From contig JAFRSW010000019.1 in the NCBI GenBank assembly GCA_017427385.1, positions 124,001-188,000 on the forward strand: a DNA stretch of 64,000 nt. Direction: 5' to 3'. The translations under genes were made by a program, and so were the position numbers. Source of the stretch: Bacteroidales bacterium (lineage in GTDB: Bacteria; Bacteroidota; Bacteroidia; Bacteroidales; UBA932). Below the pieces are notes generated by a model. It was not told the DNA's origin and ran no database searches. It saw only the letters and a list, made by a program, of their open reading frames with translations. Positions within the stretch are counted from its first letter, which is position 1. Each line of letters starts with the position of its first letter. This document shows positions 3,310-32,845 of this stretch, piece by piece.

Positions 3310-3957
3310 ATGAATTCCGCCGTACGTCTGATTGTCCTTAATTCCACCAAACTGGGAGACTCGTCCCTGGTGCTGCATTGCCTTTGCCGGGAGATGGGAC
3401 GGCGGAGTTTCATCGTAACAGTGCGCAAGGGAGGTTCGCGTGCATTGTATCTACCATTCAGCGTGCTGGATGCTGAGGTTTTGGAGAACCGCAAATCTGA
3501 CCTCTGGCGGCTCCGCGGGGTTTCCGCAGCGTATCCCCTTAATGGCGTGCGGTCGGATTTCAACAAGAACGCCATCACCCTTTTCATGAGCGAGGTGCTT
3601 TGGAGGGCTGTGCAGGACGGGGCCGCCGAGGAAGGCCTGTATGACTGGTGCGAGCGCAGCATCCTCACTCTGGATGCCCTGGAGGGGAGTTTTGCCAACT
3701 ATCATCTCCGCTGGCTGATGGAGCTCGCCGGCGTGCTGGGCTTTTCTCCTTCGTTCGAGTCGCTGGCCCCCTTCGCCGGGGAGAATCTGCAGGTTATCGG
3801 CGACCTTCTCTCCGCCGGATTCGAGGAGTTCCTGGTCTATCCCCTCAACGGTTCCCGGCGCAGCGCCATCGCCGGCTCGCTCCTCCGCTATCTCTCCGCC
3901 CATCTGGAGATTCCCCTCAACATCCGCTCCCTCGACGTGCTCGGAGAGCTCTACTGA
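3310..3957 (+). CDS. recO: DNA repair protein RecO
   Basis: RecO helps load RecA onto SSB-coated single-stranded DNA in the RecFOR pathway. The 215-residue protein has the expected N-terminal OB-fold signature (SAVRLIVLNSTKLGDSSLVLHCLC, with the following RRSFIVTVRKGG) and an all-helical C-terminal half. It is slightly shorter than typical Bacteroidota RecO (about 240 aa), and I see no CxxC zinc motif. The start follows a -7 box by only 7 nt. The TGA stop coincides with the first three bases of the 75-bp repeat copy A, so the repeat sits exactly at the gene end. The gene is divergent from the S41 peptidase and upstream of the RAYT transposase, with no sign of co-function with either. Confidence 0.85.
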   Translation: MNSAVRLIVLNSTKLGDSSLVLHCLCREMGRRSFIVTVRKGGSRALYLPFSVLDAEVLENRKSDLWRLRGVSAAYPLNGVRSDFNKNAITLFMSEVLWRAVQDGAAEEGLYDWCERSILTLDALEGSFANYHLRWLMELAGVLGFSPSFESLAPFAGENLQVIGDLLSAGFEEFLVYPLNGSRRSAIAGSLLRYLSAHLEIPLNIRSLDVLGELY

Positions 3958-4029
3958 GTATCAAGCACTTACGCAAAACCGTCTGGTGAAAATGCACCAG
4001 ACGGTTTATAGTAACTAATTGATAATCAA
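3955..4029 (+). repeat. 75-bp REP-like hairpin repeat, copy A
   Basis: A 75-bp unit that aligns without gaps to copies at 5076-5150 and 19497-19571. It contains a perfect 13-bp stem (AAACCGTCTGGTG at 3976-3988, CACCAGACGGTTT at 3995-4007) with a 6-nt loop. It ends in TGATAATCAA, and its start (TGAGTATCAA) is a two-base variant of the same 10-mer. By my hand alignment it matches copy B at 61 of 75 positions and copy C at 57 of 75. It starts on the recO stop codon and lies upstream of the RAYT gene. Confidence 0.88.
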
Positions 4030-4133
4030 GTATGATGTAGAAAGATGAAAAAGGGTATTGTGAATTGCGTGGAAGTTTACGATATTTGCAGAAAGCCCTA
4101 TGTCTGGGCTATGGATAAATAGAATTGAAAGCT

Positions 4134-5069
4134 ATGAAGGGTCAGAACAGAAAACTCTATCCGGACATAATCAATCATTGTTATCAGAGAACCATAAATG
4201 GAGACCTGATCTTTTACAATGTTTATGATTGCCTGATGTTTTTTACCATTTTTTGCGTTCAAGCGCCAAAATATGGAATCAGGGTTTATAAACTATGTTT
4301 GATGCCGGACCATATTCATAATTCTTCTTCCGCAAAAAGAAAGAAGGATTTATCGGATTTCACCCAGGTTTATACTGCAATGTACGCCAGGGAACACAAC
4401 ATTGTATGCAATGAGAAGGGGTCTGTATTTCAGTCCCCATTCGGCAGTGCACCTAAATATGGAGAGAAAAAAGCACGCTCCAATCTTATTTATGTCGATA
4501 ACAACCCGGTAGAGCGACACCTTGTGGAAAAGGCTGAAGACTATCGTTGGAATTTTCTTGCCTACGCAAAAAGCAATCACCCCTTTTCAAAGCCTCTGGC
4601 ATTGAAAGAGACTTCAAAAGCAATGAAAACAGCTATAGAAATAGTAGATGCATGGTATAATGATGGAAAGTATCTATCGTATTTTATGCTGAGAAGGATG
4701 TTTTCACCTCTTTATGAAGAGGAAAAGCGTCAATTAGTAGATTACATTGTAACCAAATACAACATTCTGGACTATGAGGGAGGGGCCGCTTTTTTTGACG
4801 GTTATGAGAACATGTTAATTGCAACACACTCTGTCACCGGCAGTGAACACGACTTAAACGAAGTCTTTGTTGGCAAATCTGATGAATACTATAACAAGAT
4901 GACTTCGATTCTTATGAATACAGGGAGATTCAAGGATATCCATGATGTGTTTTCTTTGTCTATCGAAGACAGGATGGGTTTACTCAAGATGCTGAACTCC
5001 CAGACCGATGCGACACTGGAGCAAATTGCGAAGTATCTGCACATTCCCTTTAAGCACGAAAAAGGTTAG
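4134..5069 (+). CDS. REP-associated tyrosine transposase (RAYT), IS200-like Y1 family
   Basis: A single-strand HUH transposase of the Y1_Tnp type (COG1943). The diagnostic HUH motif appears as MPDHIHN (about residue 62), and the Tyr nucleophile is likely in LIYVDNNPVERHLVEKAEDYRW, which matches the YxxxNPV...W block of RAYTs. About 150 further residues follow the Y1 domain. The last 30 (TLEQIAKYLHIPFK) look like a helix-turn-helix. Length is 311 residues from the ATG at 4134; an in-frame TTG at 4125 would add three residues. The gene is clearly more A+T-rich than its neighbours, suggesting horizontal acquisition. It is bracketed by two 75-bp hairpin repeats in the same orientation, the arrangement expected of a RAYT with its cognate REP sequences. 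The frame is intact, so it may be functional. The exact RAYT group is not determined. Confidence 0.87.
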   Translation: MKGQNRKLYPDIINHCYQRTINGDLIFYNVYDCLMFFTIFCVQAPKYGIRVYKLCLMPDHIHNSSSAKRKKDLSDFTQVYTAMYAREHNIVCNEKGSVFQSPFGSAPKYGEKKARSNLIYVDNNPVERHLVEKAEDYRWNFLAYAKSNHPFSKPLALKETSKAMKTAIEIVDAWYNDGKYLSYFMLRRMFSPLYEEEKRQLVDYIVTKYNILDYEGGAAFFDGYENMLIATHSVTGSEHDLNEVFVGKSDEYYNKMTSILMNTGRFKDIHDVFSLSIEDRMGLLKMLNSQTDATLEQIAKYLHIPFKHEKG

Positions 5070-5075
5070 CACCCT

Positions 5076-5150
5076 TGATAATCAAGCACTTACACAAAAC
5101 CGTCTGGTGCGTTTTAACCAGATAATTTATAGTAACTATCTGATAATCAA
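5076..5150 (+). repeat. 75-bp REP-like hairpin repeat, copy B
   Basis: Downstream partner of copy A, in the same orientation, starting 7 bp after the RAYT stop. Both termini read TGATAATCAA exactly. The left arm AAACCGTCTGGT (5097-5108) is identical to copy A, but the right arm reads ACCAGATAATTT (5117-5128), so the base of the stem has decayed. The distal flank TTTATAGTAACTA is shared with copy A. Confidence 0.87.
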
Positions 5151-18021: not shown

Positions 18022-19509
18022 ATGTTTCTATTGGGTTATGATATAGGCAGTTCCTCGGTTAAAGCCAGTCTGGTGGACGCTGAAAGCGGCAAATGCATCG
18101 CTTCGGCATTCTACCCTAAAAGCGAGGCTTCAATCCTTTCGCGGCAGCCCGGCTGGGCGGAGCAGGATCCGGATGCCTGGTGGGAATACCTCAAGGCCGC
18201 TACTGCAGAAGTTTTGAGTGCCATACCGAACGGAGTGAAGGTATCTGCCATCGGCATCTCCTACCAGATGCACGGCCTGGTGTGCGTGGGGAAGGACGGC
18301 CGCCCCCTGCGCCCGGCCATCATCTGGTGCGACTCCCGCGCCGTCCCCTACGGGCAGAAGGCATTCGAGGATCTGGGGTCCGGCTGGTGCCTGAAGCATC
18401 TCCTGAACTCTCCCGGCAACTTCACCGCCGCCAAGCTTGCGTGGGTGAAGGAGAACGAGCCGGAGTTGTTCGCCCGCATCCACAAAATCATGCTCCCCGG
18501 GGACTACATCGCCATGCGCCTCACTGGCGAATGCTGCACCACCGTGAGCGGGCTATCGGAGGGGATGATGTGGGATTTCGCGCAGAACCGTCCGGCGCGC
18601 GAACTGCTTGATTATTATGGATTTGACCCAGCCATCCTGCCGGAAATACGGCCCACTTTCTCGGAGCAGGGAAGGGTGAGCGCGGCTGCCGCGTCGGAGC
18701 TTGGCATTCCCGCTGGAGTGCCTGTCTGCTACCGCGCTGGCGACCAGCCGAACAACGCGTTGAGCCTGAACGTGCTGAACCCGGGAGAAATCGCCGCAAC
18801 GGCCGGCACTTCCGGAGTGGTTTACGGTGTGCTCGGGGAGGTGAATTACGACCCTCTTTCGCGTGTGAATACTTTCGCGCACGTCAATCATACGGTTGAG
18901 GATCCACGCCTAGGGGTGCTCCTCTGCATCAACGGCACCGGTATCCTCAATTCCTGGATGCGCCGCAACGTTGCCTTCGACGGAATGACCTATCCCGGCA
19001 TGAACGCCCTGGCCAAAGAATCTCCTGTCGGCAGCCGCGGAATCAGCATCCTTCCCTTCGGAAACGGAGCTGAACGCATGCTCGGAAATGCCGCTCCCGG
19101 GTGCAGCTTCCATGGCATCGACTTCAACCGCCACGGCCGCGGAGACCTCATCCGCGCAGCCCAGGAGGGGATAGTCTTCTCGTTCCAGTACGGCATCGAG
19201 GTGATGCAGGCGATGGGCATGAAGATAGATCGTATCCACGCAGGCAACGCGAACATGTTCCTCTCGGAGATCTTCCGGGAGACCCTGGCAAGTGTTTCCG
19301 GCGCCACCATCGAACTCTATGATACCGACGGGTCCGTCGGCGCCGCCCGCGGTGCCGGCCTCGGCGCTGGCATCTACGCCTCGCCTGCCGAAGCCTTCTC
19401 TACTTTGGAGCGTTTGGCGCTGGTAGAACCTGCCCCCGACCGGGGGCCATATCTGGAAGCCTATGCCCTCTGGCGCGACCTCCTGCAAAACACTGCTGAT
19501 AATCAATGA
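18022..19509 (+). CDS. xylB: Xylulokinase (FGGY family)
   Basis: Phosphorylates D-xylulose to xylulose-5-phosphate, the second step of xylose use. The N-terminal FGGY phosphate loop is GYDIGSSSVKASLVD. The substrate-side motif is SYQMHGLV, and the C-terminal ATPase part includes GDQPNNALSLNVLNPGEIAATAGTSGVVYG and a late glycine-rich GAARGAGLGAG. The start chosen (MFLLGYDIG) gives 495 residues, normal for the family; upstream in-frame codons encode sequence with no homology to a kinase. The last three codons (Asp-Asn-Gln) and the TGA stop lie inside repeat copy C, so insertion of the repeat probably rewrote the C terminus. It is followed by xylA 69 bp later, in the same operon. Confidence 0.93.
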   Translation: MFLLGYDIGSSSVKASLVDAESGKCIASAFYPKSEASILSRQPGWAEQDPDAWWEYLKAATAEVLSAIPNGVKVSAIGISYQMHGLVCVGKDGRPLRPAIIWCDSRAVPYGQKAFEDLGSGWCLKHLLNSPGNFTAAKLAWVKENEPELFARIHKIMLPGDYIAMRLTGECCTTVSGLSEGMMWDFAQNRPARELLDYYGFDPAILPEIRPTFSEQGRVSAAAASELGIPAGVPVCYRAGDQPNNALSLNVLNPGEIAATAGTSGVVYGVLGEVNYDPLSRVNTFAHVNHTVEDPRLGVLLCINGTGILNSWMRRNVAFDGMTYPGMNALAKESPVGSRGISILPFGNGAERMLGNAAPGCSFHGIDFNRHGRGDLIRAAQEGIVFSFQYGIEVMQAMGMKIDRIHAGNANMFLSEIFRETLASVSGATIELYDTDGSVGAARGAGLGAGIYASPAEAFSTLERLALVEPAPDRGPYLEAYALWRDLLQNTADNQ

Positions 19510-19571
19510 GTTGCTTAAAACCGTCTGGTAAAAATGCACCAGACGACTATGCGTAAATAATTGATATACAA
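19497..19571 (+). repeat. 75-bp REP-like hairpin repeat, copy C, between xylB and xylA
   Basis: This copy aligns gap-free over 75 bp to copies A and B. The stem is CGTCTGGT (19522-19529) with ACCAGACG (19538-19545) around an 8-nt loop. It starts with TGATAATCAA and ends with TGATATACAA. It supplies the last three codons and stop of xylB and nearly the whole intercistronic region, ending 7 bp before the xylA ATG. No transposase lies next to it, as expected of a dispersed REP. Confidence 0.87.
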
Positions 19572-32646: not shown

Positions 32647-32647
32647 T

Positions 32648-32803
32648 CGGCTATTCTTTGCCCCACCTGTAAAGGAAACCCTACAAAACCTCGACTGGTC
32701 GGCTATTTTTTGCCCCACCTGTAGGGGAAACCCGGCAAAACCTTAACAGGTCGGCCATTTTTTGCCCTACCCGTAGAGGAAACCCGGCAAAACCTCAACA
32801 GGT
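32648..32803. repeat. 52-bp tandem repeat, three units
   Basis: Three head-to-tail units of exactly 52 bp start at 32648, 32700 and 32752, each beginning CGGCYATTYTTTGCCC and ending ACCTNNACNGGT. Units 2 and 3 are closest. A partial unit continues on each side (GCAAAACCTC at 32623, CGGCC at 32804). The middle unit can form CCCC-N7-GGGG, and unit ends form ACCT-N4-AGGT. There are no unique spacers. Together with 32804-32959 it fills most of the 349-bp gap between the YiiX-like gene and uvrA. Confidence 0.85.
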
Positions 32804-32845
32804 CGGCCAAGAAAAACGGAAAGGCGGGTCGTAAATGACCAATCC

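Follow-up and report, generated by a model that had tools for sequence, protein, structure and literature searches.

The window analysed here (64,000 nucleotides (nt) of a Bacteroidales bacterium of the UBA932 lineage; contig JAFRSW010000019.1, positions 124,001 to 188,000) carries, downstream of recO, a gene for an HUH/Y1 protein resembling the REP-associated tyrosine transposases (RAYTs; REP, repetitive extragenic palindrome). The gene is bracketed by two copies of a 75-nt hairpin unit (Table 1). The genome analysed, hereafter the source genome, comprises 22 contigs with a total of 1.93 Mb and is 77.75% complete. The names recO, SGNH/GDSL hydrolase, EamA transporter, chorismate synthase and exonuclease VII large subunit are based on Pfam, and the placement of units relative to genes was judged with a simple open reading frame (ORF) caller.

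Table 1 Features of the RAYT-like module and its surroundings (window positions)
Feature	Position	Strand	Basis or remark
RAYT-like HUH/Y1 gene, 311 residues; in-frame TTG start at 4125	4134..5069	+	ORF, profiles, predicted fold
HUH motif H60-I61-H62	4311..4319	+	both H invariant, 90/90 members
Y120, within YVDNNPVE	4491..4493	+	invariant, 90/90; aligns with Y115 (chain numbering) of 4er8_A
C-terminal part, ~160 residues	4581..5066	+	conserved across family; helical in model
Upstream 75-nt hairpin unit	3955..4029	+	repeat search, fold, model R1
Upstream unit stem, 13 bp with 6-nt loop (AAACCGTCTGGTG / CACCAGACGGTTT)	3976..4007	+	fold; covariation over species
Outer box of upstream unit, TGAGTATCA, consensus TGATWATCA	3955..3963		unit alignments
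Second outer box of upstream unit, TGATAATCA	4020..4028		unit alignments
Downstream 75-nt unit, stem decayed	5076..5150	+	repeat search, fold, model R1
Dispersed unit copy at one gene's end, before another on the same strand	19497..19571	+	also at the same site in genome G045
recO, upstream neighbour	3310..3957	+	Pfam RecO_N, RecO_C; anchor for between-species site comparison

The gene is best read from the ATG at 4134, without internal stop. Its product proved RAYT-like, as the original prediction had proposed: the catalytic HUH and tyrosine motifs are intact and conserved at a distance of 60 residues, and the predicted fold is that of TnpA-REP (4er8). Pfam Y1_Tnp is matched by 86 of 90 family members at an E-value of 0.1, the window protein scoring 23.9 bits against a cut-off of 23. 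The NCBIfam model REP_Tyr_transpos (NF047646) matches all 90 at 0.1 or better (best 5.9e-14), with the window protein at 35.3 bits, below the curated cut-off of 80. No Pfam family is common to the C-terminal parts of the 90 members. The source genome holds two family genes, 40% identical to each other; the second (L025, G000:C4:50592-51482) lies downstream of the chorismate synthase gene and has flanks with a different hairpin of its own (stem GCCTCTACAG).

The two flanking units were confirmed at exactly the positions first given for them, in the same orientation and identical at 61 of 75 positions (81%), and the third unit in the window matches at 76%. As single-stranded DNA, the upstream unit folds at -19.6 kcal/mol (z -8.3), a value equalled by none of 200 shuffled sequences. 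The downstream unit folds only weakly (z -1.4; 25/200 as good) because one arm of its stem has decayed. Each unit is a near end-to-end palindrome, so orientation is a weak notion, and the palindromic box TGATWATCA is therefore as much an inverted repeat as a direct one. Among 51 listed loci, the present one included, the flanks matched better as direct repeats at 33, better as inverted repeats at 17 and equally at one. The first three bases of the upstream unit form the recO stop codon TGA, and the recO genes of seven relatives have their own stop one codon further on. A short reading frame of 25 codons, read by eye, lies between the upstream unit and the gene (4046-4123).

Dispersed copies were sought with a covariance model, R1, built from a gap-free alignment (A1) of 14 unit copies of the source genome. 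The scan scored 150 of 542 first-look candidates, so that unit counts are lower bounds, and returned at least 17 distinct loci on seven contigs that score 64 bits or higher on their better strand, along with at least seven weaker ones. Fourteen of the 17 had been used to build R1 and three were new to it. The gene is thus bracketed by a repeat of its own that is dispersed through the genome, far beyond the three loci to which, by the original prediction, it would have to be confined for the pairing to be doubted. Eight of the 17 strong units lie between convergent genes, seven between genes on the same strand and one inside an ORF; the remaining one was called divergent, yet it lies downstream of the exonuclease VII gene, whose end falls within the unit. 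Fifteen overlap a gene end or lie within 20 nt of one. The motif TGATWATCAR occurs nine times on the two strands of the window, against 0.37 expected, and eight of these occurrences are inside units.

Comparison between genomes revealed a constant frame around a variable stem. In a gap-free alignment (A3) of 22 units of 79 nt, one from each of 22 genomes, 98.3% of cells in the central helix are paired, and 12 of 13 pairs show changes on both sides. The covariation is 0.507, against 0.176 in shuffled alignments (0/500 as high) and 0.07-0.13 when the pairing is slid, a figure that leans upward because the units were chosen by a structure-holding model and their genomes are related. The foot of the helix reads TTA at columns 17-19 in 20/22 units and TAA at columns 60-62 in 18/22. 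Further out, TGA stands at columns 3-5 in 15/22 and 68-70 in 19/22, and TCA at columns 9-11 in 17/22 and 74-76 in 14/22.

The stems differ from gene to gene. We compared the 250 bp upstream with the 250 bp downstream of the gene at 91 loci, 88 of which were usable. At 47 of the 88, the best match to a flank was its own partner, where about one such case was expected; the same was true of 22 of 46 further loci from named records. Private matched flanks are therefore found at about half of the loci. The matched pieces are mostly hairpins, with stems such as ACCTCTGGGA, CGACCTGGT, CTCCCGGC and GCCTCTACAG. For nine genomes with at least two matched loci, the self score had a median of 32 (at least 18 by selection), whereas flank scores across paralogues had a median of 9.25, and only 2/22 reached 16. 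A frame-type unit lies within 300 bp of the gene at 49 of 91 related loci, on both sides at 24 of them.

Within a survey of 151 genomes of the genus, the source genome counted, relatives of the gene (E 1e-10) were found in 89, with up to eight per genome, and the unit model matched 74. As the original prediction had anticipated, repeat and gene tend to occur in the same genomes: 65 have both, 24 the gene only, nine the unit only and 53 neither, an odds ratio of 15.9 from related genomes that are not independent trials. The corresponding counts among genomes at least 90% complete are 25, 8, 4 and 25. A gene-profile scan of 295 genomes sampled from the order (two of the same genus; cut-off E 1e-25; at most seven candidates scored per genome among the matches listed) matched the source genome and, partially (profile positions 5-154), a genome from another genus of the same family. 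R1, applied with stricter filters and 31 candidates scored per genome, matched none of 148 further genomes sampled from the order at E 0.001. Among the best 80 of 180 loci, the named records with the gene are labelled uncultured Bacteroidales or Bacteroidia, and the titles that give a source name ruminants.

The recO site allowed the module to be followed between species. By RecO identity, the nearest genomes are G085 (86%), G121 (83%), G045 (81%) and G099 (73%). The gene follows recO in five species, namely that of the source genome, G099 (62% identical) and three named records (79%, 75% and 64%), so that its position is orthologous. Its synonymous sites are saturated while the nonsynonymous difference (pN) is 0.11-0.26, which indicates that selection has maintained the gene. 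The stems at this site are CGTCTGG (source genome, L264), GCCTCTGG (L265) and TCTCTGG (L266, G099). The cores of the two units are on average 89% identical within species (72% in the source genome) and 65% between species; the two flanking units thus undergo concerted change. G094 has an empty site: there, recO and an EamA-type gene adjoin directly. In G045, the gene is missing and a unit is preserved only in its left 22 nt, up to the stem foot (L208 / L358); this half unit could be a cleavage scar or a simple deletion. No unit was seen downstream of recO in G085 and G121.

Units elsewhere also vary in presence and stem at orthologous sites. At least five units of the source genome are found at the same place in G045, but the one downstream of the exonuclease VII gene is absent from G045 and G121. 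The box was not seen there in either genome or at G094's vacant recO site, so the suggestion that TGATAATCAA is a duplicated target finds no support. At C18:231643, the source genome, G045 and G121 carry a unit with the CGTCTGG stem, while G085 (L348, G085:C24:51000-51600) has a similar frame around a different stem, ATGCCTGCC.

Some units coincide with rearrangements. A block of 4-5 kb (L235) is inverted relative to its neighbours in G045, G085 and G121 (in G045, one neighbour only was matched), and in the source genome both of its ends hold units, one of them being the gene module. In G045 and G121, another inversion has one end at the unit C13:133476 and no family unit seen at the other; a third, in G085, has an end at C18:213965. 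We regard this overlap as an observation and not as proof of a role, since units occupy the gaps where breaks harm least.

Predicted fold and arrangement place the module among the RAYTs, but its narrower features set it apart from canonical REP systems. In a literature search for which most subscription papers were out of reach, we found no description of this family, and the comparisons that follow draw on the accessible text of each paper. As with RAYTs, the gene is flanked by a palindrome with extragenic copies elsewhere, and it is stationary and vertically inherited, not multiplying as an insertion sequence (IS). However, the units lack a GTAG foot (GT[AG]G in the foot columns, either strand: 0/14 in A1, 0/22 in A3). 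The residues aligned to W94 and Q95 of the GTAG recognition region (PMC6006769) are not kept (F in 77/90, Q in 10/90), nor is R104 of the same region. REP palindromes usually exceed 100 copies (PMC2817692), against the 17 strong and seven weaker loci, as lower bounds, of this incomplete genome. Compared with TnpA-REP and its REPs (REPtrons of E. coli, Stenotrophomonas and Marinomonas; PMC8266576), the unit is 75 nt long and two-sided, and the proteins have about 160 additional C-terminal residues, apart from scoring below the NCBIfam cut-off. The naming of the module as a Bacteroidota REP/RAYT element thus stands for the enzyme and not for REPs in the strict sense.

Such an element is of a known kind, as TnpAY1 subclass 2.6 (Quentin et al. 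2018; Bertels group 5), from Bacteroidetes and with 'atypical secondary structures', has already been described (PMC6006769). It shares with our family the phylum and atypical hairpin flanks with copies elsewhere in the genome, but has medians of 82 for the HUH-Tyr distance and 179 residues for length, against 60 and 311 here. The TIRYTs of TIRtrons (largely subclass 2.1; PMC3733652, PMC6006769) are likewise longer Y1 proteins with C-terminal additions, and their flanking repeats are possibly self-complementary and moderately abundant. They have a GGGGWSAS motif that is not in the unit consensus of A1 or A3, and no comparable shared frame is described for them in the accessible text. Their C-terminal Bac_DnaA_C or HTH_23/HTH_28 domains had no Pfam match at E 0.1 in our 90 members, in a region that the fold comparison barely reached beyond residue 231. 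The 'double foot' REPs of subclass 2.4 (PMC6006769) are also two-sided palindromes with a foot at each end, there GT[AG]G with a median HUH-Tyr distance of 88, here TTA/TAA with TGATWATCA and 60. RayT genes have also been reported in Chryseobacterium (PMC11194056), in whose accessible text repeats are not mentioned.

Taken together, we consider it probable that the module is a lineage-specific RAYT system in which a stationary HUH/Y1 nuclease acts on its own hairpin unit and moves units as passengers. The binding, cutting and moving steps are modelled on work on RAYTs, again as accessible (PMC8266576). The vertically inherited nuclease would recognise its own unit folded as a single strand and cut it near the foot, and units, as small non-autonomous passengers, would be pasted or copied into single strands that lie exposed, insertions surviving when they fall at the ends of genes. 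The two gene-side units would be renewed from the same pool. Each gene would read its own stem, the TGATWATCA box and TTA/TAA foot being the shared part and probably holding the cleavage and joining sites. Loss of the gene would leave relic units. We infer from the above that the module may still be able to act, as the original prediction had supposed.

Several observations weigh against this reading. At 41 of the 88 loci, the best match to a flank is not its own partner, and the cores of the source genome's own pair agree at only 72%. Only six of 19 dispersed units best match the flanks of a fetched gene of their own genome (the gene sets per genome being incomplete), and some look orphaned. 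Nine of the 74 unit-bearing genomes lack the gene at E 1e-10; when the profile was relaxed to E 0.01, seven of them had weak matches only, nearly all to the core alone, and two had none. Copies within the source genome show little covariation beyond shuffles, which reached the pairing in 47/500 and the score in 25/500 cases, because the copies are too alike. Kinship within the genus inflates both the co-occurrence and the covariation tests, and presence or absence at a site indicates change without giving its direction. Finally, G045, G085 and G121 hold strong units with the stem of the source genome, although the closest relatives of the gene there reach only about 40% identity. The original prediction had regarded equal repeat loads in relatives without the gene as evidence against the pairing, and G045 (96% complete) partly shows this, with at least eight units at 73 bits or more beside a best gene relative of 40% identity. 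Five of the eight share sites with the source genome, one by a single close flank, so the G045 units look like inherited relics.

These shared sites are also what would be expected if the protein were a domesticated binding or processing factor and the hairpins its fixed sites, for example in termination, replication or repair, spread by recombination and gene conversion instead of catalysis. Gene conversion would also account for the joint change of the recO flanks, and the placement of the units is suggestive: eight of 17 lie between convergent genes, against 10 of 42 junctions in the window. Of these eight, five have both stop codons within 20 nt and seven at least one, and several genes end within a unit. 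Nevertheless, we find this explanation unlikely, as the HUH and tyrosine residues, needless for a mere binder, are invariant in 90/90 members, sister species differ in the presence or stem of units, and a terminator scan found the decayed unit only, at chance level (2 against 1.5 expected).

An IS200/IS605-like transposon, or one bounded by terminal inverted repeats, would move the gene jointly with both units and leave the dispersed units as solo ends. The matched units on both sides of the gene and the half unit at the G045 recO site without the gene are compatible with this, and the best solved relatives by sequence profile are the ISDra2 transposases 2xm3 and 2xo6 (E 0.003), ahead of 4er8 (E 0.093). 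Such an element would, however, be expected to leave near-identical copies of gene and ends at several sites, and the 43 within-genome pairs of fetched loci examined contain no near-identical genes (best identity 78.3%, median 47%), while the two genes of the source genome are 40% identical; we therefore judge it very improbable. That intergenic terminators came to look alike through shared composition and lie beside the gene by accident is scarcely credible: the units do form hairpins at gene ends, but the excess of private matches (47/88 against about one), the covariation of stems within a constant frame across 22 genomes and the lack of matches in the 148 other genomes of the order all speak against it.

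Beyond the lineage-specific RAYT system itself, we put forward tentatively, and as a whole with considerable doubt, that enzyme-hairpin pairs, each blind to the others, have radiated within one genus and that their address has two parts. One part, the frame (TGATWATCA, TTA/TAA), would say 'unit of this kind' and be recognised by portions of the protein common to the family, perhaps on double-stranded DNA by the C-terminal part; the other, the stem, would say 'mine' and be read on the single strand by the HUH domain. Units would supply stop codons themselves, establish themselves where genes end, be exchanged at the same site between species and mark inversion breakpoints, so that the pairs might also rearrange the chromosome.

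The discrimination of RAYTs between their own and other palindromes has been tested for three pairs, according to the accessible text of PMC8266576. Dozens of naturally occurring pairs, some genomes holding several, are available here within a single genus; the frame is constant across them and the stem free to vary, and a recognition code should therefore be readable from sequence and testable by stem swaps. Gene, repeats and empty sites can moreover be traced across related species. The family also runs counter to a published contrast, in the accessible text of PMC6006769, between Y1 subclasses that bear REPs and others whose C-terminal domain is large, as it combines a C-terminal part with hairpins.

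Two further observations were made alongside. A distinct Y1 family of about 290 residues (MSNHVHF and similar) occurs in several genomes of the same genus (L180, L181, L183, L184, L185, L193 and L204), five of these seven loci having no matched flanking repeats. At 32647-32807, the window also contains 3.1 tandem copies of a 52-bp unit.
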